In this document: positions 18,986 to 58,660 of the stretch, in pieces
Position numbering within the stretch: the stretch's first letter is position 1
How the letters are laid out: each line of letters starts with the position of its first letter
Virus record (IMG/VR): IMGVR_UViG_3300031576_000001
Coordinates: 186,001 to 250,000 of that record
Reading direction: 5' to 3' (one strand)
DNA: 64,000 bases
Origin: a virus
Program-made: the position numbers and the translations under genes
Notes under the pieces: generated by a model
The model's database searches: none
What the model saw: only the letters and a program-made list of their open reading frames with translations
What the model was told of the DNA's origin: nothing

Positions 18986-20146
18986 ATGACCTACCCGAAC
19001 CTGGACGATAGATTTCAGCCGATCTACACCAAGCCCCTCACGGGGATTCCCACGGCAAAGCGTGCGCGAGCGGACGCTTCTAGCGCGGGGCTAGCGGGTC
19101 CAGCGCTAGACAGGGTGGTGAGGTTGGAGGGTGCAGAGAGGCACTGGGCGAGAACGACCGCTACCCTGGAAATGGCATTGTGGGCTGCTTTCTCGGTACG
19201 CCACCGGGACTGGCAAGAGGACACGGAGCACCGCAAGGGGTTTGCACGAGACGCGGCGAGCCTGGTCAGCGGGGGAGCCTCTGAGTTGCACTTCCTCACG
19301 GACGTGCTGGCGCTAGCCTGGGCGCACCTCACGTTGGACATCAACTACCACGGCGGCGGGAACGAGGACCAACCCGCCGTGCGCCTGCCCCCGTTCCGCT
19401 CTCTTGGGCTGGGCAAGTGGAACAAGATCGACACGGAGAGCTACGCCAGTGCCGGCAAGTCAGCCCTGGTCATCCTGGGCGAAGAGCTTGACGCTGAAGC
19501 CGAGAGGTACGCCCAAGAGGCGAGCGGGGCGACCGTTACTCAGTTTCAAGCCAGGGACGGTGAGTTGTACGTAGAGGTACGGGTAGGCTCCGTGCTTGCC
19601 GTGTCCACGCACGTTCCCCTGGCGTGGTACAGGGGGAGCGACCTCTGGGGGATTGACCCCTGGGTTGACCGTCTTTGCCTCGCCAAGCTGTCAGCCTGTC
19701 TCAAGTCTGGTTTCAAAGAGGGGATGTTGCCCTGGGCTACGTTGTACAACCGGCTGCAAGCCAGGCGCCGTGTCTTCCGGGCTGCACATTTCTGGTATGA
19801 CTTGCTGCAAAAGTTCCCCGAGTACATGGAGCCCGCCCGTACTGCTGAGCCTGGTTCGCCCCTTCACGCGGTGTGGCAGCTAGCGTGTTTGCCTTACGAG
19901 AGTGACCTCCTGGCGGCGGACCTGTGGCTCAAGAGTGTAGCCGAGGAGGGCGCTTCCATGTCACAAGCGCTAGCCTGGCTAGAGTCCCTCCACCACCTAG
20001 AGGGGGCTCTTGTCCCCCCGGACAGGGTAACCGACCATGACCTCAGTTTCCTCTCCAGCGCGTCTCCCTGCGAGGGTAGCCCAGCGTTACGCTGCAAAGA
20101 CGAAAGCCAAAGCGCCGCCGTCAGCCCCGGAGCCCACGGGGATTGA
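18986..20146 (+). CDS. Hypothetical protein, 386 aa
   Basis: ATG 18986 is fixed by the box at 18970-18979. The protein is mostly helical with many Trp and Tyr residues (AAHFWYDLLQKFPEYM) and no membrane segment or catalytic motif. It overlaps the next gene by about 110 bases in another frame. It precedes the group of tagged proteins and might be structural, which is a guess from position. Confidence 0.65.
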   Translation: MTYPNLDDRFQPIYTKPLTGIPTAKRARADASSAGLAGPALDRVVRLEGAERHWARTTATLEMALWAAFSVRHRDWQEDTEHRKGFARDAASLVSGGASELHFLTDVLALAWAHLTLDINYHGGGNEDQPAVRLPPFRSLGLGKWNKIDTESYASAGKSALVILGEELDAEAERYAQEASGATVTQFQARDGELYVEVRVGSVLAVSTHVPLAWYRGSDLWGIDPWVDRLCLAKLSACLKSGFKEGMLPWATLYNRLQARRRVFRAAHFWYDLLQKFPEYMEPARTAEPGSPLHAVWQLACLPYESDLLAADLWLKSVAEEGASMSQALAWLESLHHLEGALVPPDRVTDHDLSFLSSASPCEGSPALRCKDESQSAAVSPGAHGD

Positions 20147-21998
20147 GAAGGCAATCAAGGACGCCTTTGCTTCTCTGGGGGGCGAGTTGGGCTCTACGCT
20201 GGCTAGTGAGTTCGTCTCTGTTCTTGACAGCAAGCTAGAGAGCGCCCGTGAGCGTGTGCTCAACTTGTCTGCGAAGTCCTGGGCGGTGGCACGCAAGGGG
20301 ACAGAGACCTCCTCTTGGGAATCTGACGAGACAGGATACCACTACTCGGTCGAGCTAGACTACCCAGAGGTTGTAACGGCTACCGTGAAGGCGCCGTTGT
20401 CGTGGGACACACTAGTCACTGAGGTTGCCCAAGGGGTAGACACAAAGCACCGTGGTCTCGCCGTAGAAGTTATGCGTACCCCGGCAGTAAAAGCAGCTTG
20501 CCTCAAGGTGGCGGAAGAGCGGGTGGCGCTACAGACCATTGAAGCAGGAGAGCTACGGACCTCACCTCTGGGTGCGTCCGCGGTAGAGTTCGCTGAGGAC
20601 AAGTCACAAAGGTCCATCGACTCCGACGACGACCCCAACTACGAGATACCCTGGGGTAAGCACGAGATTACGGTACACGGGGGCAGCGTGACCGCAAAGC
20701 TAACCTCCTCTGGCGCGCTGGACGTACTCTTTACCGCGAGCGTCGGGCTAGAGGTTGAGTTTTTCTGGCCCGGTGACCGTGGGTACAACGATTGGTTACT
20801 TAGAGGCTCCCTGGCTTCTATCCCTCACAAACAGGGAGAAGCCATGCCCAAAGACGTTGACCGCTACCACGACGAAGTATTGAAAAGCAACCCTGACTAC
20901 TCAGAGGCTCAAGCATGGGCTACGGCGTGGTCAATTTTCTGCCGGAATAAAGACCCTGGGTCGGAGCACTGCAAGAAGCCCACGTCGGAGTACCTCTCAG
21001 GCAAAAATGCGGGGCTACTGGTCAGGGTCGCCTCTGCCTACCTCGACAAGCACGCAGCGCAAGACCCTGAGTATACCTCGCACCTCAAGCACTTCCTGGT
21101 AGCCCTGGACAAGGAGGTCAACAAGCTGGCGGGTCACCGAAGCGAGCCTTTGACGGTGACGACCAAGGACTTTGGTGGTGCGAGGGGTCTGCCGCGCGTC
21201 ATTGTCCAGGGACCGAAGGCACAGCACTACCTCTTCGTGGTCGAGAAAGGTAACCCCAAGAAAGCCTACGGGTGGCAAATTTCGCTGTGCGACGCAGAGA
21301 GCGGCGCCCCTCTGAAGGGTAAGAAGCCTGTGGGTACGCTGAACCCTCGCCCTGAGAAGCGCTGGGCAAAAGACCCCATTGGGTGGCACGACGCCTTTGC
21401 TAGCCTGCGGTCACTTGACCTTGACGCACTCTACGGCAAAGAGGACTTGACCGAGGAGGAGCTAGCCCCTGGGTCTACACGGTGGGACGCCCTTGAGGAG
21501 CTACCTCCCATGGAGACTGAGATTCCTGGGGACGACGCTAGCTGGTCTGACCTGGAACAAGTCAAGAATGCAGCAAAAGCTAAACCGTCTAGCAAGTGGA
21601 AAGACCTTGGCAGCTACAGTCGCGAGGCCACAGCGGTTGAAGAGGCTATTGCTAGTCTGGACGCGGTAGAGAAGGAAGTGAGCCAGGGTATCGAAGAGGC
21701 TACCTCCAAGCTCAGACCTACGTGGGTTGGGGACGCAAAGAAAGTGGTGGGTGAGGTTTACAACAAGCTCCAAGCTGCCTTGAGGAGTGCGGACTTGACG
21801 TTGGGGGCTATGGGTCCAGCACTCCGAAAGTTGCCCCTACACTCCAAGCTAACCCAAGAGGCTGTCGCCATGGTGTCTACTCTGGAGAGCGCGGTTACGC
21901 GGCTCACCGCAGTGCGAGCGGCTTTGAGTCGTGCCACGGTTGGGGACACCCCGGCGGTAGAAGCTGCTTTGGCAAAGACAAAAGCACTTCTAGGTTAG
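20037..21998 (+). CDS. Large modular protein with N-terminal and internal RVAxRY-like motifs and a PGSEHC module
   Basis: Encodes 653 residues. The N-terminus MTSVSSPARLPARVAQRYAA carries the RVAxRY motif. Around residues 270-320 lies MPKDVDRYHDEV...AQAWATAWSIFC...KDPGSEHC, a module widespread in large-phage proteins. It is followed directly by a second motif copy, LLVRVASAYLDK, near residue 330. The C-terminal third is acidic then helical and probably coiled. The repeated motif suggests a modular or processed polyprotein. Function unknown. The start overlaps the preceding gene by 110 bases; the motif position supports ATG 20037. Confidence 0.75.
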   Translation: MTSVSSPARLPARVAQRYAAKTKAKAPPSAPEPTGIEKAIKDAFASLGGELGSTLASEFVSVLDSKLESARERVLNLSAKSWAVARKGTETSSWESDETGYHYSVELDYPEVVTATVKAPLSWDTLVTEVAQGVDTKHRGLAVEVMRTPAVKAACLKVAEERVALQTIEAGELRTSPLGASAVEFAEDKSQRSIDSDDDPNYEIPWGKHEITVHGGSVTAKLTSSGALDVLFTASVGLEVEFFWPGDRGYNDWLLRGSLASIPHKQGEAMPKDVDRYHDEVLKSNPDYSEAQAWATAWSIFCRNKDPGSEHCKKPTSEYLSGKNAGLLVRVASAYLDKHAAQDPEYTSHLKHFLVALDKEVNKLAGHRSEPLTVTTKDFGGARGLPRVIVQGPKAQHYLFVVEKGNPKKAYGWQISLCDAESGAPLKGKKPVGTLNPRPEKRWAKDPIGWHDAFASLRSLDLDALYGKEDLTEEELAPGSTRWDALEELPPMETEIPGDDASWSDLEQVKNAAKAKPSSKWKDLGSYSREATAVEEAIASLDAVEKEVSQGIEEATSKLRPTWVGDAKKVVGEVYNKLQAALRSADLTLGAMGPALRKLPLHSKLTQEAVAMVSTLESAVTRLTAVRAALSRATVGDTPAVEAALAKTKALLG

Positions 21999-22006
21999 AA
22001 CACGCC

Positions 22007-23440
22007 ATGCTTTCCGAGAGAGTCGCGACCCGTTACCGTTGTGCGCAGCTAGCCAAGACGGCGGGCAGTGACCTTTGGGCGTCCGTGGTAGCCGCCCTGA
22101 CCCAAGCGGCTAGCGAGGCTAGTGCTTTGAAGGGCGCCGAGCCTGACACTGAGGAGGGTAAGCGTACTCTGCTCAACATGGTTCTACTGGGGACCGGGAA
22201 GCCCCTAGCCTCCTTGGCGGAAAACCCTACCTTCGTAAAGTGGGTCACGCTAGGTTTCCCTTCGGGTCAGGGTGCGGCTACGCTTGAGCAACTCACCGCC
22301 CTTTACGAGAACGCTAGGGAGGAAGCCAAAGCGGTACGCAATGGCGACCCAGTGTTTGAGTTCCGGCAAGCCGTGACCGCCTTTGAGCGCGTGGTCAATG
22401 ACCTCTTGGCAGAGCTAGCGCCTGAGCGTTTGACCTACCAAGGCTTTACGGTCACCAACTATGACCACATGAGCGATGCCGTGGTCCGTGGGCTCCTAGA
22501 GGGTGTGGATTACGTGGTAGCCCTGTTCAAGCGCAGAGGGCTAGAGAAGCTGTTGCACTCTGGGGTAACCGAGATTCACCTGGATATTGAGAACTACATT
22601 AGCGACAAACCTAGCACTCTAGGGCACTACCGTCCTTCTCAGAGGGCGATCCATATGTACCCTAATGGGCTCAGAATAGCCAACACCCCCAGAATGCTGA
22701 GCAAGTGGGTCAACGAGATATTCCTGCATGAGTTTGGGCATTACATTCACCTGGCGTACCTGCCCAAAGAAGCCATGGAGGCGTGGAACGCTACGTGGGA
22801 CGATTTCAAGGTCAAGTGTGAGGTTTTTACACAGGCGACCACAAACATTAGCGTGGAGGAACGTGCGCTATTCTGGTCATTGTTGCAGAAGAATGGCTAT
22901 CAACCGTCCAAGGTAGCACCCAAACTGAAGCCTTTCCTCAGATTGAAATTTGGTGCGTGGCTACGCCAGTACTACTCTGGTCCCCTCATTACAGCGGGGC
23001 AGTTCAAGCTGACCGAGAAGGGTAAGAACTTCTTTGCCCTCTTTGTGGACCCTGAGAAGTACATGCTGGAAGAGCGCGGTTACTATGTGGACGAGCCAGG
23101 GTACGCCAAGGAGTATCAGAAGCTAGAGCGTACCAGACTGACGGACATAGGACTCGTTAGCCCTTCGACCTTCCCGATCCCCAACGAAACGGTAGAAGAG
23201 ATCAAGAAGGCCAACCCTGAGCTAAAGGCTGAGGTTTCAGCGGAGCTAGACAAGTTGCAACCCGTATCGACCTACGGGCGCACCGACGAGATGGAGGACT
23301 TTGCAGAAGCCTTCGTGGCTTTCGTAGGGGCGCCTGAGAAGCTAACCCACATGGCGAAGTTCCGTATGCAGCGGGCGCTCTCTCTTGCTGGGCTGTACGG
23401 CAAAGAGGTCATGAAGCTAGCCCAGCACCCTGAGCAGTGA
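22007..23440 (+). CDS. Zinc metalloprotease-like protein 1 (HEFGH) with N-terminal RVAxRY motif
   Basis: Encodes 477 residues starting MLSERVATRYRCAQLA. HEFGH at residues 241-245 is a gluzincin-type HExxH site, and EDFAEAFVAF about 190 residues later supplies a likely third zinc ligand. A region before the site (RRGLEKLLHSGVTEI) aligns with similar regions in the two following genes, so the three are paralogues. Possible roles are maturation of phage proteins or attack on host proteins. The TAGGTT ending ten bases before ATG resembles the genome's -10 box and overlaps the previous stop. Confidence 0.8.
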   Translation: MLSERVATRYRCAQLAKTAGSDLWASVVAALTQAASEASALKGAEPDTEEGKRTLLNMVLLGTGKPLASLAENPTFVKWVTLGFPSGQGAATLEQLTALYENAREEAKAVRNGDPVFEFRQAVTAFERVVNDLLAELAPERLTYQGFTVTNYDHMSDAVVRGLLEGVDYVVALFKRRGLEKLLHSGVTEIHLDIENYISDKPSTLGHYRPSQRAIHMYPNGLRIANTPRMLSKWVNEIFLHEFGHYIHLAYLPKEAMEAWNATWDDFKVKCEVFTQATTNISVEERALFWSLLQKNGYQPSKVAPKLKPFLRLKFGAWLRQYYSGPLITAGQFKLTEKGKNFFALFVDPEKYMLEERGYYVDEPGYAKEYQKLERTRLTDIGLVSPSTFPIPNETVEEIKKANPELKAEVSAELDKLQPVSTYGRTDEMEDFAEAFVAFVGAPEKLTHMAKFRMQRALSLAGLYGKEVMKLAQHPEQ

Positions 23441-25126
23441 GGGATTCTCATCAGGCGCGAGGCTGGACAGCACGGACCTGAAACTCTCTAGCTGGTCTCT
23501 GTTGAGGCTCTCCTCCATGACGTAACGCTCAAAGACTTCTGCAAAGGCTTCCTCGATTGAGCCTGCCCCGTAATCAGACACGGCACTGACGGGCTTGATC
23601 TCACCTTGCGTGTCGGATACCTTGTCAAGATACTGGGTAACGAGAAGGTAAGCGTCCCAATGGTCCTTGCTCCAATCCAGGTACCACCTCGTTACACTCA
23701 AAGAGGCGAGTTCCTCCTTGCTGTAGAGCGCTATACCCTCCAGTGTGGCGAGGGTGCTGTAGATTGCGGTCTCAGCCTCCGAGAAGTCTACCCCGGGTAC
23801 GGTGGGTAGTATAGCTCTCAGGCTTCTCTCAAAGGCGTCCCTCAGTCCGTCTAGCTGCGAAACCAATGCTTTCAACAAGTCATCGCCCTCTTGGAAGAGC
23901 AGCTTGTAAATCTGAGTCTGAAAACTGTCAAATGCCTGTTGGGCTTCTTTCTTGACCTTACCTATATTGACAAGGGGAGCCTCTGGGTTGTACCTAACGC
24001 GGTATGGTCCAGAGGGGTACTCCCTGGTTTTCTCAGAGGTATTGGTGCGTACTAGGTCATTGAACCGAGCGCGTTGGTCTGACCGCATAAACTTGTACCA
24101 ATAACGGTGCCCCATTTCGTGAACAATGGTGTCCACCACCGATTGTCGAGGGGGTATGGTGAGCTTTACCGTGTCATCACCATCGTGGTACGTGCCTGCT
24201 GTACTCTCCAAAGAAGTGTAACCGTATTGCTGGTACGCCTCTTGAGCCGCGGGGCTCAGCTTGTCGTAGGACGTGCTACCTAGAAAGAACACCCCATACC
24301 ACAACTTGCCAAAACCCTTACGCTCCAAGAGAGACTTGGCTTCCATGAAGTATTGTGCGTAGGCTTCAGCGTTCGCTATCAGCTCAACCCCATAGCCCTC
24401 TTTGACGATGACTCTCAGTTTGCCAATGCTGAAGTCACGGTACCAGAGTAGGTCACCCTCCTCTTTGGCCTTCTCCGTATATTTAGCTGCCAGGATCTTG
24501 TAAATAAAATCAATCCTGGCGGGCACGTCCACCACGCGAGGGTGCTTCACCTTGACCCAGAGGCGCGGTATGGCGTTCTCGACCATGGCACGAGCCTTGG
24601 CGTTCAGGTTGTACAACCAAGGCTCGTCCTCCTTGACAAGCGCGTCCTTGTCCTCTTGGGGCATTCTGTTGGCTAGCCGGCTGGCCGTCGCCAGCAAAGC
24701 CGGTATGTCTACGTCAGGGTAGCTCTTTAGTTGAGCCGGTACGTTTCGACCGTAGACCTTCCAAGAGGCGTCTTCGATCAGGCGCCGGAACAGGCTGGCT
24801 AGCTTGGCGCTGGGCGAGTTATCGCCCTTGTACGGGATGGTCGCTAGCTTGGCGTCAAAGGCTAGCTGTCGTTTGTTAGCCTCCTCTAGGTCGTCGCGTA
24901 TGTCCTTGACGTACTCCTTGACAGCTTGCGCGGCTACCGGGTGGAGCCCCATCGCCTTTAGCTCGCGCTCAAAGGTCTCTAGCCAGTAGTAAAGGTCATG
25001 GATGTAGCTGAACGTATTCTTGTTCTTCAAGCCCTCGACAAGCTCTTTCTTCTTGGCTTGGAAGAACTTGATCGGCACAAAGCCGGCGTGTTTGGCGCGA
25101 TACCTGGCGACAAGACGGTCAATCAT
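23417..25126 (-). CDS. Zinc metalloprotease-like protein 2 (HEMGH) with N-terminal RVAxRY-like motif
   Basis: Encodes 569 residues on the opposite strand, starting MIDRLVARYRAKHAG. HEMGH lies at residues 336-340 (DTIVHEMGHRYWYKFM), and SIEEAFAEVFERYVM near the C-terminus gives the third ligand. RKGFGKLWYGVFFL upstream of the active site matches RSGFPQVCYGPVFI in the next gene. The 3' end overlaps the first protease gene by 24 bases. The long N-terminal helical region may be a binding or pro-domain. Confidence 0.8.
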   Translation of the reverse strand: MIDRLVARYRAKHAGFVPIKFFQAKKKELVEGLKNKNTFSYIHDLYYWLETFERELKAMGLHPVAAQAVKEYVKDIRDDLEEANKRQLAFDAKLATIPYKGDNSPSAKLASLFRRLIEDASWKVYGRNVPAQLKSYPDVDIPALLATASRLANRMPQEDKDALVKEDEPWLYNLNAKARAMVENAIPRLWVKVKHPRVVDVPARIDFIYKILAAKYTEKAKEEGDLLWYRDFSIGKLRVIVKEGYGVELIANAEAYAQYFMEAKSLLERKGFGKLWYGVFFLGSTSYDKLSPAAQEAYQQYGYTSLESTAGTYHDGDDTVKLTIPPRQSVVDTIVHEMGHRYWYKFMRSDQRARFNDLVRTNTSEKTREYPSGPYRVRYNPEAPLVNIGKVKKEAQQAFDSFQTQIYKLLFQEGDDLLKALVSQLDGLRDAFERSLRAILPTVPGVDFSEAETAIYSTLATLEGIALYSKEELASLSVTRWYLDWSKDHWDAYLLVTQYLDKVSDTQGEIKPVSAVSDYGAGSIEEAFAEVFERYVMEESLNRDQLESFRSVLSSLAPDENPSLLRVLG

Positions 25127-25152
25127 GGTGGTAGCCCGGTGTATAAGGCGGG

Positions 25153-25158
25153 TAGACT
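25153..25158 (+). promoter_or_regulatory. Possible -10 box TAGACT
   Basis: The same GGCGGGTAGACT context occurs ahead of the methyltransferase start at 29416. Here it lies 30 bases upstream of ATG 25189, implying a short leader. Confidence 0.4.
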
Positions 25159-25188
25159 AAGAGCCCTCTTTTCCACAGGTTCTTCTGT

Positions 25189-26367
25189 ATGACCGTCAAG
25201 CAAGCCGCCTCTATGGGTGACCCCGCGGTACTTCTATCGCAACTTTCCAGTCTTAGCTTCGACCTGGACCGCAACGTGGCGGATCTCAAGGAGTACCACG
25301 CCAAGCTAGAGCGCCGCGACCCAGACCGTTACCGTAACAGTTCTATCGTAGATGCTGCTTGGAAGCAATTCGGAGACATTCTCGGGTCACGTAAGGTGCG
25401 CGACCTTGGTTTTGCGCTCCTACAGGATTACGATATGACGGTAGCCCACCGAAAGGCTGTCGAGGTGGGGGTACACTTGCTCAGTCACGGCGCCCGTCCC
25501 AAGGCGCCAAGGACGGGTGACCGCGCGTTGGCAATGGCTAGCTTCGTCTTGGACCGGTGCATCACGGTGCAGAACCTTCTCAGCTCCGCAAAGGTGGTCA
25601 TTGAGTCAGGCAAGAAGCACAGCACAGAGGGTGTGGGTGCTACAGCCAACGCAACGAAGTTTCCCGCAGGCAGCTTCACAGTAGTCAACTCTGGCGGGTT
25701 CCCTGAGAAGACCATCAGAACGGTCGTGGACCTTGTAAAGAAGGCGGACCAGGCTCTAAAGCGCAGTGGATTCCCGCAGGTTTGCTATGGCCCCGTGTTC
25801 ATCACGAAGACAGTGGGTCGCTCGTCCAGTGTGCTGGCGTTCTACGATCTGAAGACGGATGATATGTACGTCCGCGCTAACCTGAAAGGCTCGGGCAACA
25901 GCATCCTCCTGAACTTCTTGCATGAGGTAGGGCACCGCTTTGACTTCAAGTTTCTAAAGGATAACCAGGGTAAGCAACGCCTCTACAATGAGGTTTCCAG
26001 GCAAGAGGGTCAACGTGAATTTATCGCACCCATCGTGGGTACACAGTTCAAAGACCACAAAGGTCTGAACTGGGAGGTTCTACGTGTAAGCGGCTCTTCC
26101 CTCTATGTGCAAGACGCAGAGGGGCGCACGGGGACAATGAGTGTGCGTGGGTACTATGAGCAGACCGGCAAACTAAGGGACACGGCTAACCCTAAGCACC
26201 TTGGGTTTGTGTCTGCTTATGCCAAGACTGACCCCGATGAGAACTTCGCTGAAATGTTCTCTCTGTACTGTGATGATACGCTCCCCGTCATGCAAAGCCT
26301 CTCCTTTGAGGAAGTGTGCTTTGGTAAGCAGGACACGTCACGCAAGACCGCGTTAGCTCAGAGCTAA
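25189..26367 (+). CDS. Zinc metalloprotease-like protein 3 (HEVGH)
   Basis: Encodes 392 residues. HEVGH at residues 245-249 (LNFLHEVGHRFDFKFL) and ENFAEMFSLYC near the C-terminus form the metallopeptidase site. It is the shortest of the three paralogues and lacks the RVAxRY-like N-terminus seen in the other two. It is transcribed divergently from protease 2, with 62 bases between starts. ATG 25213 is an alternative start. Confidence 0.8.
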   Translation: MTVKQAASMGDPAVLLSQLSSLSFDLDRNVADLKEYHAKLERRDPDRYRNSSIVDAAWKQFGDILGSRKVRDLGFALLQDYDMTVAHRKAVEVGVHLLSHGARPKAPRTGDRALAMASFVLDRCITVQNLLSSAKVVIESGKKHSTEGVGATANATKFPAGSFTVVNSGGFPEKTIRTVVDLVKKADQALKRSGFPQVCYGPVFITKTVGRSSSVLAFYDLKTDDMYVRANLKGSGNSILLNFLHEVGHRFDFKFLKDNQGKQRLYNEVSRQEGQREFIAPIVGTQFKDHKGLNWEVLRVSGSSLYVQDAEGRTGTMSVRGYYEQTGKLRDTANPKHLGFVSAYAKTDPDENFAEMFSLYCDDTLPVMQSLSFEEVCFGKQDTSRKTALAQS

Positions 26368-26880: not shown

Positions 26881-27960
26881 ATGACGAGCACGCTAACCGA
26901 GCGAGTGGTAGCCAGACACCTCTCAGCCTACGTAGAGGTGCCGGACTACGACGAGCCCGAGGAAAACGACTTTGAGGCTGCCAAGAGGGAAGACCTTGCC
27001 TATTGGGACAAGGTGGAGGCGGTCTTCTTCAAGTTCGCCAAGACCTACGTGAAGCCTCTGGTAGCCAACCCCAGCTTTGAGCCGGAGTTTCGCTCTGCGG
27101 TGTCTGACTGCTTCTTCAAGGCGAAGGGCTCTCACACACAGTTCAACATTGCATTGGCTTTGCACACCCGCTCCCCCCGAGGGTGCTATCAGTCGCCCTT
27201 GGAGCACTCGTGGAACTACCGTAACAAAGAGGCCATTGCCTACGCTAATAAGCTGCGCACCGGGAAGAAGCTAGACCGGGCACACCGGCAGATTGAGTCT
27301 GTCGAGGGTTGGTTCCGTAGCCTGGCAGAGTTCAAGGCGTACAGTGAGGGCACCGAGATCATGGAGGCGCTAGAGGCTACGGCTGACGTTTCCGGGTGGT
27401 CTCAAAAGTGCCTGGACGTAGCTAACGCCCTCTCCGACCACGTACACAAACTCAAGTACGCCTCGTCCATGTGGGGTAGCCCTACCATTCTCAAGAACTT
27501 CCAAGAGGCATGGGACGTGGCGCGTCAGGGCTACAAGACGATAAAGCCCATCTTTGAGAAGGCGTGGCTACAGTTTTGTGGGGCTGACCGGCAGCTAGAC
27601 AAGTTCACAGACGCTTGGTGGAAGGTACGCCAGATTACCCTAAAGGCTTACGAGGATTTCCGAGTGGGGGACAAGTCCGCCGTCGTAAAGCTCTACGCTG
27701 TCCGTGTCGAGACGTGCCTCCGTCAGTACCACGAGGTCATGGACCGGGGGCGAGAGGCTTTCGACCGTGACCTCTTCGTCAAGGCGACCAAGTGGAGCGA
27801 CATGCAGTCCGAGTACCAAAACGCTCAGAGGAAATTCTTGATAGACTTGATAGACTGGGATCTGCCATGGCCTTGGACGGAGCACCACCCAAAATCCTGC
27901 ATACTCAAGGCGGTCACTCAGCTTGAAGCCTTGGACCGCAAGCGTGGCACACTGTTCTGA
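26881..27960 (+). CDS. Helical protein with RVAxRY-like N-terminal motif
   Basis: Encodes 359 residues beginning MTSTLTERVVARHLSAY, the tag shared with neighbours. The rest is predicted helical, rich in Trp, Lys and Glu, with no enzymatic motif. It could be a virion or scaffold component. The tag is the only link to the other proteins. Start at ATG 26881 lies 21 bases beyond a divergent promoter box. Confidence 0.7.
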   Translation: MTSTLTERVVARHLSAYVEVPDYDEPEENDFEAAKREDLAYWDKVEAVFFKFAKTYVKPLVANPSFEPEFRSAVSDCFFKAKGSHTQFNIALALHTRSPRGCYQSPLEHSWNYRNKEAIAYANKLRTGKKLDRAHRQIESVEGWFRSLAEFKAYSEGTEIMEALEATADVSGWSQKCLDVANALSDHVHKLKYASSMWGSPTILKNFQEAWDVARQGYKTIKPIFEKAWLQFCGADRQLDKFTDAWWKVRQITLKAYEDFRVGDKSAVVKLYAVRVETCLRQYHEVMDRGREAFDRDLFVKATKWSDMQSEYQNAQRKFLIDLIDWDLPWPWTEHHPKSCILKAVTQLEALDRKRGTLF

Positions 27961-44739: not shown

Positions 44740-46554
44740 ATGACGCTATGTGACCGGGTAGCCGCGAAGTACAAAGAGAAGAAGAAGGTCAAGACCCAGA
44801 AGGGCGAGTCTACGGTCTACCTCTACTCGGAACGCCAGGTCAAGAACCGCAACAAGGAAAAGGCCAAGAGGCTAGAGTCTCTTCGCAAGAACATTGGTGA
44901 CCTTATGGGTCGCGTCAAGCGTGACCTAAAGTCTGAGGACGTGGACACCAAGCTAACCGCGCTCGCCGTTGCGCTTGTTGACTCTACGTATGAACGAATT
45001 GGAAATGAGGAATCTGCGGACGAGCGTGGGCACTACGGGGTTACCGGGTGGCTCAAAAGTCACGTCAAGTTCAGCAAGAGCAAGGCGGTTATCAAGTACA
45101 CGGGCAAGGCTGGCGTCGAGCACACCAAGGAAGTAAAAGACAAAGCCATTCTCTCCGCGCTACGTGACGCTTGCGAGGCGGTTGAGAAAGACGACCCGAT
45201 CTTTGAGTACGACGGGGGCACCGTGACCCCTGAGAAGGTCAATGCTTACCTGAAACCGTCCAAGATAACAGCCAAGGACTTGAGGGGCTATCATGCTAAC
45301 GATACGATCAAGGCCATTCTGAGGACTCTACGCGGTAAGGGCGGCAAGCTCCCCAAAGACAAGGAGGAGCGCAAAGCTAAGCTCAAAGAGGAATGGAAAC
45401 AAGCCCTCGCAGAGACGGCTGAGATTATTGGGCATGAGTCCATTACATTGAAAAAAAGCTACCTTGTGCCCGGGCTTGAGGCAGACTTCATGAAAAACGG
45501 CACGGTAAACGATAAGATGGCTTCCCTACAAAGCTCCCGGTACTCTTCTATTGCTCAGCGAGTAAGCCAGCGATGGGCGCACCTTCACGATTGCGTGATC
45601 CACGCGGGCTGCCCTGTGTGTGGCTTCACGGTGGACGAGGCTACCGGAGAGGTATACGACCCTGGCTACCCCTGTCCTGTGTGTGGCGTGGGTGGCGCCG
45701 TTGTGCTTTCCGCTGAGGACTCCCTGGGTCGACAGAAGATAGCCTCTGAGGCGGACTCTGAGGTTACGCTAGCGGCTCGCGTGATGGTAGCGGCTTATCA
45801 AGGCTCCCCGGGGATAGACAAGACTGCCAACATGGCGGGTCGTGTCAAAGACCTACTTGCCCTTTGGAAGCGGGCACCCTCCGTGTGGGAGAAGATCAAA
45901 GAGGCTATTGGTTTGCCCGACGACTTCGACAGCCTCTCGATGCTGGGCAAGGCGCACGCCCTCATGGGAGCCTTCAAGGAGTTTGCGGCGCAGGGGAAGA
46001 AGGCAGTCGCCCACATTTTCCACCAGCTACCGACGACCTTCCCTCTCAGCATGTTCTTCGTGCCGCGTAAGAAGGTGCCAGGCATCACGGACCTTTTGGC
46101 AAGACTGGTTGACGAGGTACCCTGGCTCAAGTCCGCGCTAGGCAAGGCGAGCGCTCACCTGGGGAAGCTGGACGACTTGCTCGACAAGTACGTGCCCATA
46201 ACCAGCAAGGTCATCAAGGCTGCCGCCTTTATCTGGGTCTGGTTTGCGGCAGCCGAGCTATCGTGGGACATACCGTTTCTGGTCAGGGGTTTTACGGGGC
46301 TCATCGGGCTAGGGGAGCTTTTCGGCTCCATGCCAGAGAGCGCCCTGGGTCTGATAGCCAGCATGTTTGGGCTAGGGTACGGCGCCCTCCCGGTTACCTT
46401 GGTTATCCGGCTTGTCTGGCTTGTCGCAGAGGATTACCTCTCTTGGGTACCCGGCAAGGGGCTCAAGGTTCACTGGGACAAGCTAGGCATACAACGCCAC
46501 GATGAGCTAGTGGTGACTGCGTTAGTCACCCCACCCCGGGCACGTTCTCTTTAG
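44740..46554 (+). CDS. Topoisomerase IB fused to a zinc-finger/membrane region, with RVAxRY-like motifs
   Basis: Encodes 604 residues. The N-terminus MTLCDRVAAKYKEKKK carries the tag. Residues 10-255 are bacterial-type topoisomerase IB: ALVDSTYERIGNEE, HYGVTGWLKSHV, YTGKAG, DLRGYHANDT and GHESITLKKSYLVP, the last with the active-site Tyr. It should relax supercoils by a 3'-phosphotyrosine. After residue 265 comes another motif, AQRVSQRWAHL, then two CPVCG knuckles, a third related AARVMVAAYQ, and a helical part with hydrophobic segments near the end (AAFIWVWFAAAELSW and LPVTLVIRLVWLVA). Fusion of a topoisomerase to such a tail is unusual; cleavage into two proteins is possible. Confidence 0.82.
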   Translation: MTLCDRVAAKYKEKKKVKTQKGESTVYLYSERQVKNRNKEKAKRLESLRKNIGDLMGRVKRDLKSEDVDTKLTALAVALVDSTYERIGNEESADERGHYGVTGWLKSHVKFSKSKAVIKYTGKAGVEHTKEVKDKAILSALRDACEAVEKDDPIFEYDGGTVTPEKVNAYLKPSKITAKDLRGYHANDTIKAILRTLRGKGGKLPKDKEERKAKLKEEWKQALAETAEIIGHESITLKKSYLVPGLEADFMKNGTVNDKMASLQSSRYSSIAQRVSQRWAHLHDCVIHAGCPVCGFTVDEATGEVYDPGYPCPVCGVGGAVVLSAEDSLGRQKIASEADSEVTLAARVMVAAYQGSPGIDKTANMAGRVKDLLALWKRAPSVWEKIKEAIGLPDDFDSLSMLGKAHALMGAFKEFAAQGKKAVAHIFHQLPTTFPLSMFFVPRKKVPGITDLLARLVDEVPWLKSALGKASAHLGKLDDLLDKYVPITSKVIKAAAFIWVWFAAAELSWDIPFLVRGFTGLIGLGELFGSMPESALGLIASMFGLGYGALPVTLVIRLVWLVAEDYLSWVPGKGLKVHWDKLGIQRHDELVVTALVTPPRARSL

Positions 46555-52276: not shown

Positions 52277-54665
52277 GAGAGGTAGCGTACACCGCCGCCC
52301 CCTGACCCGCACCCATTAAACGCCAAGAGGCTCCCCTGTAGTCACACAAGGGAGCCTCCCCGGTCGCGGTACCGGCAAGGGGTAAGATGGCGATCTTGAC
52401 CTCGGAGAGGGCGAACGTGGCTTGTACGTCCCCCAGCTTGGCGGTCTTCAACGTCAGCTTGCAGTTGTCCAGGGAGGTAAACTCCGAGAACCATACCTGC
52501 CCAAGCACGGTGGCGAGCTTGATCTGTGCGATTTCCCTGAGAAGCTCCCTCGTCTCACGGGTCGCCTCCTCGGCGCGGGCGCGTAGCCAGGTCAACCCTT
52601 CCTCGGGGTACTGGAGGGCAACGTCCTTGATGGCAGGCTCCATCAGCAAGGCGCCAGCGTTACCCTTACCCTTGGCCAGCTTCTCCACAGCCTCTTTGAG
52701 GGAGGGCAACGCTGAGAGCCCCTTGAGACTCACGGTAAGCTCGCTTCCGATGTAATGGTCCGTGGACTCCTTGGTCAGCGCCTTGGGTGCGAACCCGCCG
52801 TAATCCGTGATCCCTTGCTCTTTCAACCAAGATGAAACCTCTTCGCCGTGGATAGCGCTGTACCCCAGGCTGGTCTTGCCCCCACCGTAGTCCTTGAGGT
52901 ACCCCTGGTAGACCTTCTGCCGGGCGCGAGCCTCGGTAAGCTGCATGACCTTCTCGCCCAACGTCTTGGCTGAGAGGGTCTTGGTCATGGAGCGGTTGAC
53001 CACGGCAAGGGAACCCAGGTCAAGAACCGCCTCGACCTCAAAGTCCAGCTTGGTCTCGGAGAGAACCGGTACCCCTTTGGCTTTCAGGTTGGCTAGCGTC
53101 TCGTGCGAGACCTTGACCGGCAAGCTCTTGACATTGACCAGACCGTCACGGATGATGCTGTAGTTCCGGTGAATGTAAGTAGGGAACTTCTCGGGGAGGT
53201 TGCCCACCATGGACGGGGGGAGCCGCTTGGAAAGGTCCACGGTCCCCCACACCTTGACCTGTAGGCTCACGTTCGGGCGATCCTCGTTGTAAACGAGGTT
53301 TTCGATGGTCGAGCCCGCTTCCTTCTCAGCCTCATCGGGCACGAACGTGAGAGGCTCTGGCTTGCTGGCGACAATGCTTGCAATCTTCTCTTGCAAGGTT
53401 TTGACAGCGGCTACCGTGATCTTGGGCTTGCTCATCTGAGCTTGCAACGAGGCGATCTCAGCCGTCTCCTCGTCCGTGAACCGCGAAGAGGCATCCTCCC
53501 GTGCGCGCCCGATCCGGGTGTACTTCCACTCGGGGTGGTACGGCAGAACCCGGTTGGTGCTGTCCGAGGCGAGGATACTGAGCACGTCCAGCACGGTCAC
53601 GGCGTTGTCGTCGGGTACCTTGGTGGGGTCGTAACCCTCTTGGTAGCGAGCGCCCGCGTCAAAGGCTGCCTTGGTCACGTCCGCCTGAAACTCGCTGTAC
53701 TTCTGCTTTCCGAAGCACTTGGCAAACCGGGTAATGAAGCGCACGTCACCCGTGAACTTCAACAAGGGGAGCACCACGTCGGGCTGCATCCGGCTTGAGA
53801 ACAGGCTAATCGCCGCGTACACGGGGGGCAGTACCGCCTCGTCAGGCTTCCCCGTGGTCGGCGCACCCCCCTTGCTCGCAGAGAGGTAGTACACGGTGGT
53901 CACGTCGGGGGGTACCGTGACGGAGCCCCCCTCTACGCCAAACGTCAGCACGTCACCCTGAGAGAGGGCAAAGGCCACGTTACCTACCGCGTCCCCGGAG
54001 AGGGTCAGCGTCTTCTTGGGGGTCGCCGCGACCTTGCGCCCGAAAACCTTGGTGATTTGTGGCTCGTAAGCCGAGAAGTCCTCCGTGAAGAGGAGGGCAC
54101 CCCCCAGCTTGGCTGCCATCGCAGAGAGGAGGGAGCGGTCAGCGTAAAACCCCCACTCGACCACGGCGGCACTATCCGCCTCAATCTTGCCCAGGGTAGC
54201 CAGGATCTTCTCTCGGCTCCCCTGGTTGTCGTAACCGTCGCTGAGGAACAGGAGGGCTACTGCCTCCCCGGGGTGCGCCTTCCTTAGCCTGGCGATCACG
54301 CGCGCCGCTTCCTCCAAGGGGTCTTGGAAGCCTGTGAGCCCTACCGGCTTGAGCCAGCGGTCCACCGCAGCGTTGACCTTGGCCAGGTCTTTGAGGTTAC
54401 GTAGCGCCACGTCCTCGAAGATGACCCCACACTCCCCCCTGCCGGAGAACCAGATCAGGCTCACGGTGTCCTTCTCGCCCACCAGCGAGGGAAACTTGCC
54501 CTTGATCTGCGCTCGCATGTCGGGCAGCGCACCGCTCATTGAGCCGCTGCAATCGACAACCAGCAAGTGATTCGTCGGGGGCGCTTTCGCTGGGGTGCTG
54601 TCTTTGCCCGCGCTAAAGGCTACCAGCGCGAGTCCGTTACCAAGAGGCGTTGTTGTCGGTTTCAT
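52194..54665 (-). CDS. VWA-domain protein (MIDAS-type)
   Basis: Encodes 823 residues as read. ATG 54665 lies nine bases after GGTGTACCTT. LLVVDCSGSMSG at residues 35-46 is the DxSGS MIDAS site, and VALLFLSDGYDNQG is a later VWA strand. Residues 200-300 are strand-rich; the rest is helical with Lys/Glu-rich stretches. Phage VWA proteins are often linked to virion assembly or complexes with AAA+ ATPases. The last 50 codons cross a terminator-like hairpin and the next gene's promoter, so the true end may be near 52370. Confidence 0.8.
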   Translation of the reverse strand: MKPTTTPLGNGLALVAFSAGKDSTPAKAPPTNHLLVVDCSGSMSGALPDMRAQIKGKFPSLVGEKDTVSLIWFSGRGECGVIFEDVALRNLKDLAKVNAAVDRWLKPVGLTGFQDPLEEAARVIARLRKAHPGEAVALLFLSDGYDNQGSREKILATLGKIEADSAAVVEWGFYADRSLLSAMAAKLGGALLFTEDFSAYEPQITKVFGRKVAATPKKTLTLSGDAVGNVAFALSQGDVLTFGVEGGSVTVPPDVTTVYYLSASKGGAPTTGKPDEAVLPPVYAAISLFSSRMQPDVVLPLLKFTGDVRFITRFAKCFGKQKYSEFQADVTKAAFDAGARYQEGYDPTKVPDDNAVTVLDVLSILASDSTNRVLPYHPEWKYTRIGRAREDASSRFTDEETAEIASLQAQMSKPKITVAAVKTLQEKIASIVASKPEPLTFVPDEAEKEAGSTIENLVYNEDRPNVSLQVKVWGTVDLSKRLPPSMVGNLPEKFPTYIHRNYSIIRDGLVNVKSLPVKVSHETLANLKAKGVPVLSETKLDFEVEAVLDLGSLAVVNRSMTKTLSAKTLGEKVMQLTEARARQKVYQGYLKDYGGGKTSLGYSAIHGEEVSSWLKEQGITDYGGFAPKALTKESTDHYIGSELTVSLKGLSALPSLKEAVEKLAKGKGNAGALLMEPAIKDVALQYPEEGLTWLRARAEEATRETRELLREIAQIKLATVLGQVWFSEFTSLDNCKLTLKTAKLGDVQATFALSEVKIAILPLAGTATGEAPLCDYRGASWRLMGAGQGAAVYATSHGYPLHPEKCGFHRCVVCLRLRYYERF
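52284..52293 (-). promoter_or_regulatory. Leaderless-type -10 box GGTGTACGCT
   Basis: Seven bases upstream of ATG 52276. It lies inside the 3' part of the frame of the VWA gene, which is one reason to doubt that gene's annotated end. Confidence 0.6.
52327..52358 (-). terminator. 9-bp terminator-like hairpin inside the VWA frame
   Basis: GAGGCTCCC pairs perfectly with GGGAGCCTC around a 14-base loop. On the minus strand it is followed by TTGGCGTTTA. Expected position for the end of the VWA transcript. Confidence 0.6.
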
Positions 54666-54674
54666 CGTTGGGCT

Positions 54675-54684
54675 AAGGTACACC
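54675..54684 (-). promoter_or_regulatory. Leaderless-type -10 box GGTGTACCTT
   Basis: Nine bases upstream of ATG 54665. Confidence 0.55.
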
Positions 54685-54726
54685 CCAAACGGTAGGACCG
54701 TAGACCCAAACTATGTCCTACCCTCG

Positions 54727-55053
54727 TCAGTCGTTGTTGAGGGCGTCTGGCACGCACCCCAGCTTCTTGTACACTCTGGCAAAGAAGGCTTCCACCTCTT
54801 CGATGGTGTTGCCCTCCTGGGTTGCCAGGCGAAACGACATCGGGTTTCCCGCGTCAGACGGGAGGTAGAACGTGACCTCCCACGCGAAAGAGGTAGACAT
54901 CCCAAAAAACTGCCATTGCTGGCACTGTAGGAAGTAGAGCTTCTTGTCGTCACCCCACACAGTCTTCAGAAACAGAGCGACCTTGAAGGCATCCCGGTCA
55001 TAGTATACCCGGTAGCCCGTGGCTTTGAGGTTTTCTGGCGTAATAGGGGTCAT
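54727..55053 (-). CDS. Hypothetical protein, 108 aa
   Basis: Starts MTPITPENLKATGYRVYYDR at ATG 55053, seven bases after a TACGGA box. The protein is aromatic- and strand-rich (LYFLQCQQWQFFGM), suggesting a small soluble domain. No family recognised. Confidence 0.62.
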   Translation of the reverse strand: MTPITPENLKATGYRVYYDRDAFKVALFLKTVWGDDKKLYFLQCQQWQFFGMSTSFAWEVTFYLPSDAGNPMSFRLATQEGNTIEEVEAFFARVYKKLGCVPDALNND

Positions 55054-55087
55054 GTGTGTCTCCGTAGGTGCCACTCTTGGCGAGGCG

Positions 55088-55390
55088 TCAGGGTACAACG
55101 CAGAAGTTGTCTGGCTCAGAGGGGCACGTCTCTAGGACCAAGGTGTGAAAGACCCCTACCTTGTCTTGGTAGGTCAGGGTCGCCGCAGTCTTGCTGACGG
55201 GGGTGACCTGTGGCTTGTCGATACCATTGGTTGCCGCCCAAACCAGCACCCGCTCTTTGGTGACGGAGAGTACCTCTGGGGTCCGGATAGCCTCCCAATC
55301 TCGGTTTGTTCGCGAGATTTTGCGCACCGCTAGCCCGGTAACCAACAGGGTGCCTGCGCAAACGAGCAGCAGGACTGCACGATCTATCAT
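55088..55390 (-). CDS. Small exported or membrane-anchored protein
   Basis: Encodes 100 residues. The N-terminus MIDRAVLLLVCAGTLLVTGL is a signal anchor or signal peptide, followed by a soluble domain with two late cysteines (ETCPSEPDNFC). ATG 55390 follows GGTGTAAGCT by six bases. The Cys in LLVCAGT is not a clear lipobox. Confidence 0.65.
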   Translation of the reverse strand: MIDRAVLLLVCAGTLLVTGLAVRKISRTNRDWEAIRTPEVLSVTKERVLVWAATNGIDKPQVTPVSKTAATLTYQDKVGVFHTLVLETCPSEPDNFCVVP

Positions 55391-55396
55391 GCCCGG

Positions 55397-55406
55397 AGCT
55401 TACACC
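55397..55406 (-). promoter_or_regulatory. Leaderless-type -10 box GGTGTAAGCT
   Basis: Six bases upstream of ATG 55390 on the minus strand. Confidence 0.6.
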
Positions 55407-55420
55407 CTCTTGGTCTTCTG

Positions 55421-55639
55421 TCAGGGCTTAGGGGGAAGGCGCCGCACGACCCTGCGAAGCGCCTCTACCGTGGCGCTAGCGGGATTGTTGGGGTCAAAGC
55501 CGCTCTCGGTTTTCATCCAGGGGTAGGGTCGCCCGTTCTCTTCGTGGTACCCGAAGGTCAAAGTGACGCTGTTCAAGGCGGACAGCCCGAGGCTCTCGCG
55601 AGCCTCTTCAATCAACTCGCGCATTTGCAGGGGAGTCAT
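55421..55639 (-). CDS. Small hypothetical protein, 72 aa
   Basis: ATG 55639 is preceded by AGGAGA at eight bases, so it uses a classical ribosome-binding site and lies in one operon with the gene upstream. An N-terminal helix (MRELIEEARESLG) is followed by a strand and a basic tail. Confidence 0.62.
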   Translation of the reverse strand: MTPLQMRELIEEARESLGLSALNSVTLTFGYHEENGRPYPWMKTESGFDPNNPASATVEALRRVVRRLPPKP

Positions 55640-55657
55640 GGTTATCTTCTCCTAGGC

Positions 55658-56011
55658 TCAGGGGAACTGGGCGACGCCCTTGAAGGTGTAGATCGGACCC
55701 TCGACGGCGCCCACCGTCACGGTCGCGGGCTTGCTCAGCTTGCGCAACACGACCCGGTTGAGGGGGTCGCCCGTGTTGAGGCTCACCTTGTCGCCGCTCA
55801 GGCGAGCCGAGGACATCGCCCACATGACGTGGGCGGGGGTGCCGAAGACCTTGAAGGTCACCCGGTAACCCATGCCAGGCTCGAAGGTGGCGCCCTTGAT
55901 GGTGCCTCGCATACCCTTGCGGGTCGAGACGGCTTCGCAGCCCTTTTCCACGATGAAAAGGGTGCCGACGAGGCGCGCGGGGTCAAACTTGGGGGTTTTG
56001 GAGGTGGTCAT
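55658..56011 (-). CDS. Small beta-rich hypothetical protein
   Basis: Encodes 117 residues from ATG 56011 (MTTSKTPKFDPARLVGTLFI). Strand-rich, with RGTIKGATFEPGMGYRVTFK, compatible with a small beta-barrel. The start lies in the 20-base element shared with the gene at 43763. Function unknown. Confidence 0.65.
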   Translation of the reverse strand: MTTSKTPKFDPARLVGTLFIVEKGCEAVSTRKGMRGTIKGATFEPGMGYRVTFKVFGTPAHVMWAMSSARLSGDKVSLNTGDPLNRVVLRKLSKPATVTVGAVEGPIYTFKGVAQFP

Positions 56012-56028
56012 AACCCCTCTTACGCTCA
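56009..56028 (-). promoter_or_regulatory. 20-base start element TGAGCGTAAGAGGGGTTATG
   Basis: Second exact copy of the element at 43761-43780. Confidence 0.6.
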
Positions 56029-56107
56029 CCCTGGCGGGCGACTCACGGAAAAGATGTCGGGAGGGGACACCTTTTAATAGAAAGGACTCGACGATGGGAG
56101 TCACCCT

Positions 56108-57709
56108 TTACCCTTGTAACCGAGAGGAGGCTAGGTGAACGATGTCCCACGCGGGCTCGCCTGTGTAGACCTCAGCCTCTAGGGGTGTGAAGTGCCCCAG
56201 TAGGAGCCTTGCCTTCTTGCTGGCAGAAACCTCCAAAGACTCGATGGCTGCCATGAGGTTCAGCAAGACCTCTGACGACTCGTTCTTGAGGGGACCGTCA
56301 ACAAGGTGGTTCAGCAAGTCCAGCGCCTTGGGGTTGAGGGAATAATGCGACCGCCCCCCTTTGAGCGCCGTGAGGTTGATCTTTACCCCGAGAGGCTTGC
56401 TGGTGATGGGGGTCAGTCGCCAGTCGTCGCGCAGGGCGACAACGGATTCTGGTTTGAGGGCTACCGCCTTACCGTTGAAAAACATGGTTGCCGTGTACTG
56501 TGTGGGTCTCACGCCCTGAGCCACGTCAAACATGATTTCCACCTGGATCTTGCGACCCGCACCTTCAGCCTCAGCAAGGAAGCCCGCGCCAGCCAGGGCG
56601 TCTTTCAAAGAGAGGGTCTCTTTCTCGGTCCTCACGTCCTTTGCGGTGAGCGTAGTCTTGGTGGGGCTAAGGACGGCAAACTTCTTAGGTACCTCGAAGT
56701 CCCCAGGTAGACTCTTGGCGAGCGCCAGCATGACTTTCGGAATCGCTGAGAGGTTCTTGGCTACCCCGGAGACTGCGAGAAAGGACTCCTCGGCTACGGT
56801 CTTTAGCCCCGTGGCGCTAACACTGGGGGTTTCATTGTATCGCACCCCACAGAGCACGCCGTACTGTTCGCCCTTCTTACCCACCGCTACGAAGATTTGC
56901 GCGGTTTGGTCCACGGTTGAGCCCTCCCTTCTCAGCGTTTTCCAGCCGTGGTCGGCTACCACGCCCCATTCCACCCCGGAGGGGGGGTTGTAGAAGGGCA
57001 CCCCTGGAATGGTGGTGGGTGGCTTCTTACTGTTGCGATAGTGGTTGACGGGTACCGCAAAGAGAGCCACTGTATCCTGCAACGCGTCAACCACACCCTC
57101 TTTGGTTGTAAAAGTGCGGACTACCTGTGGGACTGACGACAATTTACCTGAGCCTTGGAGGGAGTAAGCCCATTTGGACAGATCCCCTCTTGGCTGAAAC
57201 ACTTTGAGGAATAGATTCCCGTCGTAGGTATTACCAGCGATGCGACAGGCTACACCTTCGTTGATCAGTTCGATCTTGAAAAGCGACCACGGCACAAGGT
57301 CTGGCATTTGTGCCGTAAGATAGCGTAGCCAGTGGGGGGAAGCCTCTTGGCATACCCTTAGAAGATCCGTAGCTGGGGGCGGTTGCTGGGGTCGCGGTGC
57401 GGGGCGCGTGTACGGTGACTGTGGACGGGGAGCGTAACCACCCCCACCCCCGCTGTACTCGGGCGTAGCGCGCTGTACCCCCGTTAGTACGTCCTTGGCC
57501 ACGTTGACCTGGACCATCTTGCTTGGGTCACCACCCCGGTCAGGGTGGTTCTCAATCGCCTTGCGCTTGTACGCCTTCTTGATGTCCTCTTCGGTGGGTG
57601 TACCCGTCAAACCTAGCAAAGCCAGCGCTTCGCTACGCTTCATGGCTTGGACCAGGCGAGCATAGAGGGTTCTCTTGTAACGGCGAACAAGTTCGTTTGG
57701 GTCAAGCAT
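56108..57709 (-). CDS. J-domain protein with large C-terminal region and RVAxRY-like N-terminus
   Basis: Encodes 533 residues. The N-terminus MLDPNELVRRYKRTLYARLV is followed by a J domain at residues 28-85 (AYKRKAIENHPDRGGDPSKM, with HPD). A Gly/Pro-rich linker (residues 90-120) leads to a 400-residue region without recognised motif. J domains stimulate Hsp70, so it may recruit host DnaK. A shorter paralogue of the N-terminal part is encoded at 58151. Confidence 0.78.
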   Translation of the reverse strand: MLDPNELVRRYKRTLYARLVQAMKRSEALALLGLTGTPTEEDIKKAYKRKAIENHPDRGGDPSKMVQVNVAKDVLTGVQRATPEYSGGGGGYAPRPQSPYTRPAPRPQQPPPATDLLRVCQEASPHWLRYLTAQMPDLVPWSLFKIELINEGVACRIAGNTYDGNLFLKVFQPRGDLSKWAYSLQGSGKLSSVPQVVRTFTTKEGVVDALQDTVALFAVPVNHYRNSKKPPTTIPGVPFYNPPSGVEWGVVADHGWKTLRREGSTVDQTAQIFVAVGKKGEQYGVLCGVRYNETPSVSATGLKTVAEESFLAVSGVAKNLSAIPKVMLALAKSLPGDFEVPKKFAVLSPTKTTLTAKDVRTEKETLSLKDALAGAGFLAEAEGAGRKIQVEIMFDVAQGVRPTQYTATMFFNGKAVALKPESVVALRDDWRLTPITSKPLGVKINLTALKGGRSHYSLNPKALDLLNHLVDGPLKNESSEVLLNLMAAIESLEVSASKKARLLLGHFTPLEAEVYTGEPAWDIVHLASSRLQG

Positions 57710-57798
57710 GGCTTCTCATCACAGAGGGGGATAAAAACTACCTTTTTCCCCGAGAGTCTAAAGTAAGATGCCGCGCTACCTCTTGGCTATCGGCGTGC

Positions 57799-57804
57799 TA
57801 CACT
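57799..57804 (+). promoter_or_regulatory. Leaderless-type -10 box TACACT
   Basis: Ten bases upstream of ATG 57815. Confidence 0.45.
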
Positions 57805-57814
57805 CCTGCACACC

Positions 57815-58114
57815 ATGAAAGCTCTATTGATCCTGTTGGTTCTGCTCACGGCGTCGAGCACGGCTTACGCTGACATTATGCCAGGGAGGTTCCCCCGCTA
57901 CAACCCGCCACCCCGTTATATACTGTGGCAGGAGCCCCCGGCGTGGGATGACCACTCGCCGGTCCCTAGTGCGCCTCTACCTGGCACGCCTCAACCCTGG
58001 GAAGTACCGGTACCTGCAACGCCCCCTGCCCCTGCGGGGGCGCTGGCGCTGGTCATGCTGGCTCTAGGTGCTACCGCCCTCTTGGTTACCAGGCGCAACG
58101 CAAAAGCAGCCTGA
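57815..58114 (+). CDS. Exported Pro-rich protein with C-terminal sorting-like tail
   Basis: Encodes 99 residues: signal peptide MKALLILLVLLTASSTAYA, a Pro-rich middle (PPPRYILWQEPPAWD; PGTPQPWEVPVPATPP), then a hydrophobic span ALALVMLALGATALLV and a basic end TRRNAKAA. Signal peptide, Pro-rich body, terminal span and Arg tail is the layout of PEP-CTERM or MYXO-CTERM sorted proteins, though the short motif itself is not a clear match. It may be attached to the host envelope. Confidence 0.68.
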   Translation: MKALLILLVLLTASSTAYADIMPGRFPRYNPPPRYILWQEPPAWDDHSPVPSAPLPGTPQPWEVPVPATPPAPAGALALVMLALGATALLVTRRNAKAA

Positions 58115-58150
58115 CACAGAGGGTGTCCTTCTATTCCCTACCTGACAGGT

Positions 58151-58660
58151 ATGCACCATCGGGTTGTCGCACAGTACGTTCGCAAGCTCTACGCCCGCCT
58201 CGTCCTGGCAATGACCACCCAGGAAGCCAAGAGGCTCTTGGGGTTGACCTCAGCCTACCCGACCCAAGAGGAGGTAAGCAAAGCCTGGAAACAGAAGGCG
58301 CGTGAGAACCACCCCGACCTGGGGGGTAGTGACGCGGTGATGGCTCAGATCAACGCAGCCAAGGACGTACTTCTCGGGCTAAACCAGCGATTCACCCCGG
58401 ACCCTACGTGGTCTACTGGGGGTCCGCAACAGGCTCAAGCCACGCCAGCGCAGGGGTGGTCATGCAGAACCGCCCTCCAGCACGACCCACAGGGGATAGC
58501 CAGAGAGAACAGTTTCAATACCTCCGGGTTAGAGAGCGCCGCAACCTCTTCCTCTGAGAGGTTAGCCAGGGGCAGCGCCATCGCGGAGCCCCACGGAGCC
58601 GTCACGACAAGGTTGGCACCCTCCAGCGTCACGGTAGGGTCAGGTTGGCTTGTGTCGTAA
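58151..58660 (+). CDS. Second J-domain protein, short paralogue
   Basis: Encodes 169 residues. The N-terminus MHHRVVAQYVRKLYARLVLA and the J domain with ARENHPDLGGSDAVM (HPD intact) align along their whole length with the start of the 533-residue protein at 56108. After residue 95 the sequence (STGGPQQAQATPAQG onward) does not look like a domain and overlaps the convergent gene by 226 bases. It may be a truncated duplicate that still encodes a working J domain. Confidence 0.65.
   Translation: MHHRVVAQYVRKLYARLVLAMTTQEAKRLLGLTSAYPTQEEVSKAWKQKARENHPDLGGSDAVMAQINAAKDVLLGLNQRFTPDPTWSTGGPQQAQATPAQGWSCRTALQHDPQGIARENSFNTSGLESAATSSSERLARGSAIAEPHGAVTTRLAPSSVTVGSGWLVS

Follow-up and report, generated by a model that had tools for sequence, protein, structure and literature searches.

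A short basic peptide recurring at the ends and joints of unrelated proteins of large uncultured phages: a candidate capsid-loading tag

Why should a zincin-like protein, a topoisomerase and a J-domain protein of one phage begin with nearly the same few residues? The question is raised by the window analysed here, a 64,000-nucleotide stretch (bases 186,001-250,000) of the 322,633-bp virus record IMGVR_UViG_3300031576_000001. The initial annotation had pointed to seven proteins with a basic RVAxRY-like segment close to the N-terminus. The record belongs to a tailed phage, since terminase, portal and head protease families were detected elsewhere in it. The segment was found to recur on a variety of proteins, with the consensus RVAxRYLxA, or [E/S/A]-R-V-A-x-R-Y-L-x-A, in contigs of large uncultured phages. 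It is postulated, with a probability of roughly 0.57, to be a tag that would bring its cargo into the phage particle, to be injected into the host.

A shared segment in the window, its genome and other phages

All seven segments were present at the positions described. These and the further copies in the window were as follows, together with one untagged protein that is considered below.

20037..20099, plus strand: N-terminal tag MTSVSSPARLPARVAQRYAAK of a 653-residue protein (20037-21998), CC-ATG start context
21024..21059, plus strand: internal tag copy RVASAYLDKHAA at residue 330 of the same 653-residue protein
22007..22051, plus strand: N-terminal tag MLSERVATRYRCAQL of a 477-residue zincin-like protein, HEFGH at residue 241
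25085..25126, minus strand: N-terminal tag MIDRLVARYRAKHA of a 569-residue protein, HEMGH at residue 336
25189..26367, plus strand: zincin-like protein with HEVGH (Peptidase_Mx1, E=3e-5), untagged
26881..26931, plus strand: N-terminal tag MTSTLTERVVARHLSAY of a 359-residue protein with no assigned function
44740..44787, plus strand: N-terminal tag MTLCDRVAAKYKEKKK of topoisomerase IB
45559..45579, plus strand: weak internal tag-like RVSQRWA at residue 274, behind the topoisomerase domain
45778..45798, plus strand: internal tag-like RVMVAAY at residue 347, opening the C-terminal domain of the topoisomerase protein
57665..57709, minus strand: N-terminal tag variant MLDPNELVRRYKRTL of a J-domain protein
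58151..58192, plus strand: N-terminal tag variant MHHRVVAQYVRKLY of a paralogous J-domain protein

An eighth case at 1340 had rightly been called weak, and the open reading frame itself is doubtful (coding score 7.1). The tagged proteins had also been described as completely different, which holds for most; however, the J-domain pair is paralogous (51% identity) and was therefore counted as one case, and at least two of the zincin-like proteins are related to each other. The start codons of the tagged genes were considered credible because five of the seven showed CC at positions -2/-1 before the ATG, a context typical of the genes of this phage (C frequency of 61-67% at these positions among window genes). 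A Shine-Dalgarno signal was weak, being present in 16 of the 54 best-supported window genes compared to 19% of random stretches.

Enrichment was measured with the relaxed motif [RK][VIL][VA].[RKQ][YFHW], the first 22 residues being taken as N-terminal. The own-genome set comprised 195 proteins called from the window and eight further stretches (115 kb more of the record), and its counts are thus partial, with about half of the record covered. The motif was commoner at N-termini, with nine N-terminal and two interior matches (odds 42, p=3.4e-8), whereas the reversed motif gave none and three, respectively. When all N-termini of this set were compared with one another at a score of 33, nine similar pairs were found, some of them ordinary paralogues, against one for interior segments and one for a shuffled control. 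Two strong new members, MTLSERVASRYHQ (L031:5904, whose gene was the last one called ahead of that for the terminase large subunit) and MLTERIVTRYLTAA (L032:10216), had played no part in defining the pattern, and a weaker one was MTTIAERVASRAAA (L034:15062).

Because the pattern was derived from the window sequences themselves, it was also tested on other phages. In six other phage records the strict motif gave nine N-terminal and 12 interior matches (odds 6.3, p=1.6e-4), and after removal of the two matches by which contigs had been selected the odds were 4.9 (p=0.0025). Across seven records there were 14 N-terminal matches, compared to an average of 0.42 when the motif was permuted (119 orders); the sole high permutation, with 12 matches, was a nearly identical motif. 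An all-against-all comparison of N-termini in contig G001 showed no excess over controls. These controls bear on the proposal that the similarity is a by-product, either of a common way of starting a helix or of shuffled modules, with no shared function. The motif is indeed short and some interior matches are due to chance, and in the topoisomerase and Zn-ribbon-like proteins the segment runs on into a conserved domain; however, the near-zero reversed and permuted counts and the excess of similar N-termini over interior and shuffled controls in the own genome make this the least probable of the explanations considered.

Scans of IMG/VR and of annotated phages yielded the tagged contigs G001 (393 kb), G002 (167 kb), G003 (107 kb), G004 and G005. 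A further tagged record was LR745208 (metagenomic, 485 kb). A wide ATG-anchored scan of IMG/VR returned 26 stretches, the majority out of frame. Tagged proteins in these records include MSVHAERVATRYLEAA (zincin-like), MSLALRIATRYLIAI, MSIVERVAERYLKQA, MRIWERVAARYLEAV and MATLAQRVATRYLRI, and the partner domains comprise topoisomerase IB, zincin-like HExxH, J-domain, 2H-phosphoesterase-like, HAD-like and poly(A)-polymerase-like domains. The HAD-like and 2H-phosphoesterase-like labels are a reading of the sequences, with no Pfam match.

The tag was kept between homologues at 28-29% identity. The G004 homologue of the 569-residue HEMGH protein is tagged (MPSKRIVNRYLTALA), and the untagged protein at 25189 has homologues in G003 and G002 that bear an N-terminal tag. 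A related-locus search for relatives of the protein at 22007 returned none. These three adjoining HExGH proteins (HEFGH, HEMGH and HEVGH; 22007-26367) are zincin-like, and two of them have relatives in other phages. For the topoisomerase, RVAAKYKEKKK was joined to the domain in all six homologues, even when internal, and precedes it in five other phage records; upstream, some have no more than a start, others a module that is HAD-like, PAP2-bearing or 2H-phosphoesterase-like. A tblastn search of 50,697 phage records with the RVAxRYL consensus (E<=10) gave no credible match (best E=9), such a short query being insensitive.

Copies at C-termini, at domain joints and beside the head protease

The tag was also found at the end of proteins, as listed here.

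L091:4859: protein ending LASRVASRFLRRVA
L091:5274: protein ending PSPEKVASRYLTRRQ
L091:5816: protein ending SPSRVAARFLAYSTRTR
L032:6637: protein ending SLTERVARRYLSRLPVLRSR
G003, poly(A)-polymerase-like protein: ending RVALRVANRWLA

Interior copies lie at domain joints. The protein L098:8139 of G001 has four tag-like segments and L091:5816 has three strong ones, while the internal copy RVASAYLDKHAA of the 653-residue window protein directly follows a 57-residue domain, whose LR745208 homologue likewise has a tag (KVAFRHL) behind it. Points of gene fusion or splitting between phages coincide with the tag in at least three cases. In L213, one gene ends AALRVASRWLFKELK and the next starts MNRDLQIRVAARWLF. 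The HAD-like protein L091:5274 of G002, which is tagged at its C-terminus, is similar to the N-terminal module of an LR745208 chain in the order HAD, tag, topoisomerase; and what is the C-terminal part of the topoisomerase in the window has its match in G002 as a protein of its own with an N-terminal tag (L094:8031). The original description of an N-terminal motif is therefore too narrow, with copies internal and C-terminal as well. A secretion signal was rejected on account of the internal and C-terminal copies.

The head operon was examined in loci fetched by similarity to the head protease, so that selection on the tag was avoided. Of 79 such loci, 45 were non-redundant and previously unused, and the protease was located in 41. 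Terminal tags were present in 14 of 174 genes lying no more than 7.5 kb upstream of the protease, compared to 6 of 474 other genes (p=5e-5). Homology among the loci makes them less than fully independent, and of the 14, at least L258:8888 resembles a chance match. The reversed pattern was found in none of the 648 genes. Copies in these loci were mostly interior or C-terminal. In G002, a 1,247-residue protein with a long charged, coiled-coil-like region is encoded between the portal and the head maturation protease; it carries tags before and after its topoisomerase IB domain and at its C-terminus, and both preceding genes end in tags. Chains with several domains near the head protease are L091:5816 and L040:8828 (PAP2 + topoisomerase IB).

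The protease was identified from PHROG head maturation protease matches, at E=7.5e-9 for L088:4131 and E=6e-15 for the G002 homologue. With Foldseek, the top match of a homologue model was T4 gp21 (5jbl, probability 0.82). The model was built from 30 sequences, a three-sequence model having been unusable (predicted local distance difference test score, pLDDT, 34.5). A protease profile run with hmmsearch against PDB sequences gave no meaningful match. By these sequence and fold comparisons, the head protease is predicted to be gp21-like. The gene in the own genome (L088:4131-7067; genome 77,631-80,567) is split by an intein-like insertion with LAGLIDADG similarity. Separately, a weak likeness to the tag core was noted at the N-terminus, KEKVVDQYIGSSAGR, of a putative capsid protein (L089:14244, L248:14884, L238:4548).

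Two other readings turn on these locations. The tag could chiefly be a protease-recognition site, the protease cutting after RVAxRYLxA to release modules and trim cargo, with targeting left to another feature. Tags at module joints, with the several per chain noted above, and a protease gene close to the polyprotein gene would suit this, as would the Ala two residues past YL in 15 of 24 N-terminal and interior copies. The YLxA sequence is one that we take to be reminiscent of herpesvirus assemblin sites. However, this Ala was seen in none of the six C-terminal copies (one of which stops before that position), these copies lie 1-16 residues from the protein end, where cutting gains little, and single-domain cargo is tagged 3-12 residues from its start, with little left to trim. 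A role chiefly as a cleavage site was therefore considered unlikely.

Alternatively, the tag could send proteins elsewhere in the infected cell, to a phage nucleus or replication compartment, to the membrane or to DNA. It is basic and amphipathic helix-like, and topoisomerase and chaperone-like partners would fit a replication compartment. Terminal tags concentrated upstream of the protease in the head operon are not what this reading would predict, and the internal and C-terminal copies speak against a secretion-type leader, so that such a destination appears quite improbable.

A second tag

A second tag, of 26 residues (LRSKLIRLAHxNPxLRPHLLPLLKxA), was near-identical on unrelated proteins, which also argues against a by-product of helix starts or shuffling. 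It opens about 20 diverse proteins of G002 and LR745208 (for example L121:16194, L122:14337 and L037:34195), lies inside a few, and is present in further IMG/VR contigs. Among the 50,697 phage records it was absent except from LR745208, and in prokaryote genomes a full copy was found in one metagenome-assembled genome contig only. The 979-residue protein L088:58 of the own genome, encoded after the portal gene and ahead of the protease gene, terminates in a diverged copy (LTLRSLVIKTAHASQDKAPFLPILRHLKAQ). In L253, L241, L248 and L251, a related LLP[IV]I-type segment closes the genes directly ahead of the protease. Isolated phages yielded neither tag, nor did the literature searched, and string searches of the open literature for the tags returned no paper.

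Since both tags are found on diverse proteins and beside the head protease, both were read as candidate labels for the prohead core. It is possible that at least two interchangeable tags make up a general cargo-loading code, working at the N-terminus, at the C-terminus and between modules, but this extension is tentative. In G001, L119:10157 and L098:12486 may represent a third N-terminal family, M[DN]LLRIAAR[IV]A, with like starts in the L237 and L234 head loci.

Proposed capsid loading and known systems

In the proposed mechanism, the RVAxRYLxA tag would be a short basic amphipathic peptide acting as a transferable capsid-loading label. Proteins or polyprotein modules tagged at a terminus or joint would be drawn into the core of the prohead as the head assembles, presumably through binding to the core or capsid. 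Modules of the polyprotein may thereafter be freed by the gp21-like head maturation protease, through cleavage at or close to the tag. Cargo would reach the host with the DNA, and would include topoisomerase IB, zincin-like proteases, J-domain, 2H-phosphoesterase-like and HAD-like proteins, among others. The common targeting, packaging or processing signal first suggested is thus the best-supported reading, on the grounds of recurrence, of location at termini and joints, and of the clustering of terminal copies in the head operon. By analogy with the systems below, it is further postulated that tagged proteins are packaged and ejected, and that cleavage may take place.

The internal proteins of T4 (IPI-III, Alt) have only the capsid targeting sequence (CTS) in common (PMC3012670). 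The likeness lies in a short terminal peptide on otherwise unrelated proteins and in the accompanying gp21-type protease of the phage. The CTS is N-terminal, whereas RVAxRYLxA is also C-terminal and interdomain and occurs on more kinds of enzyme; no sequence resemblance between the two was established, no formal alignment having been made. In P1, whose Dar system protects injected DNA, the first 30 residues of DarB suffice for loading a reporter into the capsid (PMC9024508). The Dar proteins have no recognisable common consensus (PMC9024508), whereas RVAxRYLxA is a consensus across proteins and phages. Internal proteins of SPN3US and other phiKZ-type giant phages are loaded and processed with N-terminal propeptides (PMC5694885). 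These are mostly longer than 100 residues, in contrast to a tag of about 10-20 residues, whose fixed core is complete by about residue 20. Polyvalent proteins are described by Iyer et al. (2017) as multidomain phage proteins that combine peptidase and other enzyme domains, are encoded near virion genes and are thought to be packaged and processed (PMC5512222). Several domains per chain among virion genes hold for some tagged proteins too; however, in the part of that description available, tags at module ends or joints do not figure (PMC5512222), and tagged modules here also occur as single proteins. The likeness to all of these is a working analogy and not a claim of membership.

Several results weigh against capsid loading. 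In the 45 head-module loci the strict motif was not enriched at N-termini (two N-terminal, 15 interior; p=0.37), and the 15 interior matches were close to the 13 of the reversed motif; lone interior matches without context were therefore not to be counted. Some homologues lack the tag, as does the protein at 25189. The Foldseek match to gp21 is a weak one (E=0.014, at a model pLDDT of 72). Sites of cleavage in SPN3US have Glu before the cut (PMC5694885), to which YLxA is dissimilar. The conserved Ala leaves room for cleavage after YLxA, and in the topoisomerase the segment may belong to the domain proper.

The proteins carried in the head and injected have been established for few phages, and packaging signals that can be recognised as such are even scarcer. 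If capsid loading is correct, the injected cargo of uncultured giant phages (proteases, topoisomerases, chaperones and phosphoesterases) would be predictable from sequence, and the tag could serve as a tool for putting proteins into phage heads.

Elsewhere in the window, a vWA protein common to many Salmonella and Klebsiella phages was found, and a 1,362-residue helicase at 2962-7050 has a LAGLIDADG homing-endonuclease match at residues 736-940, probably an intein.

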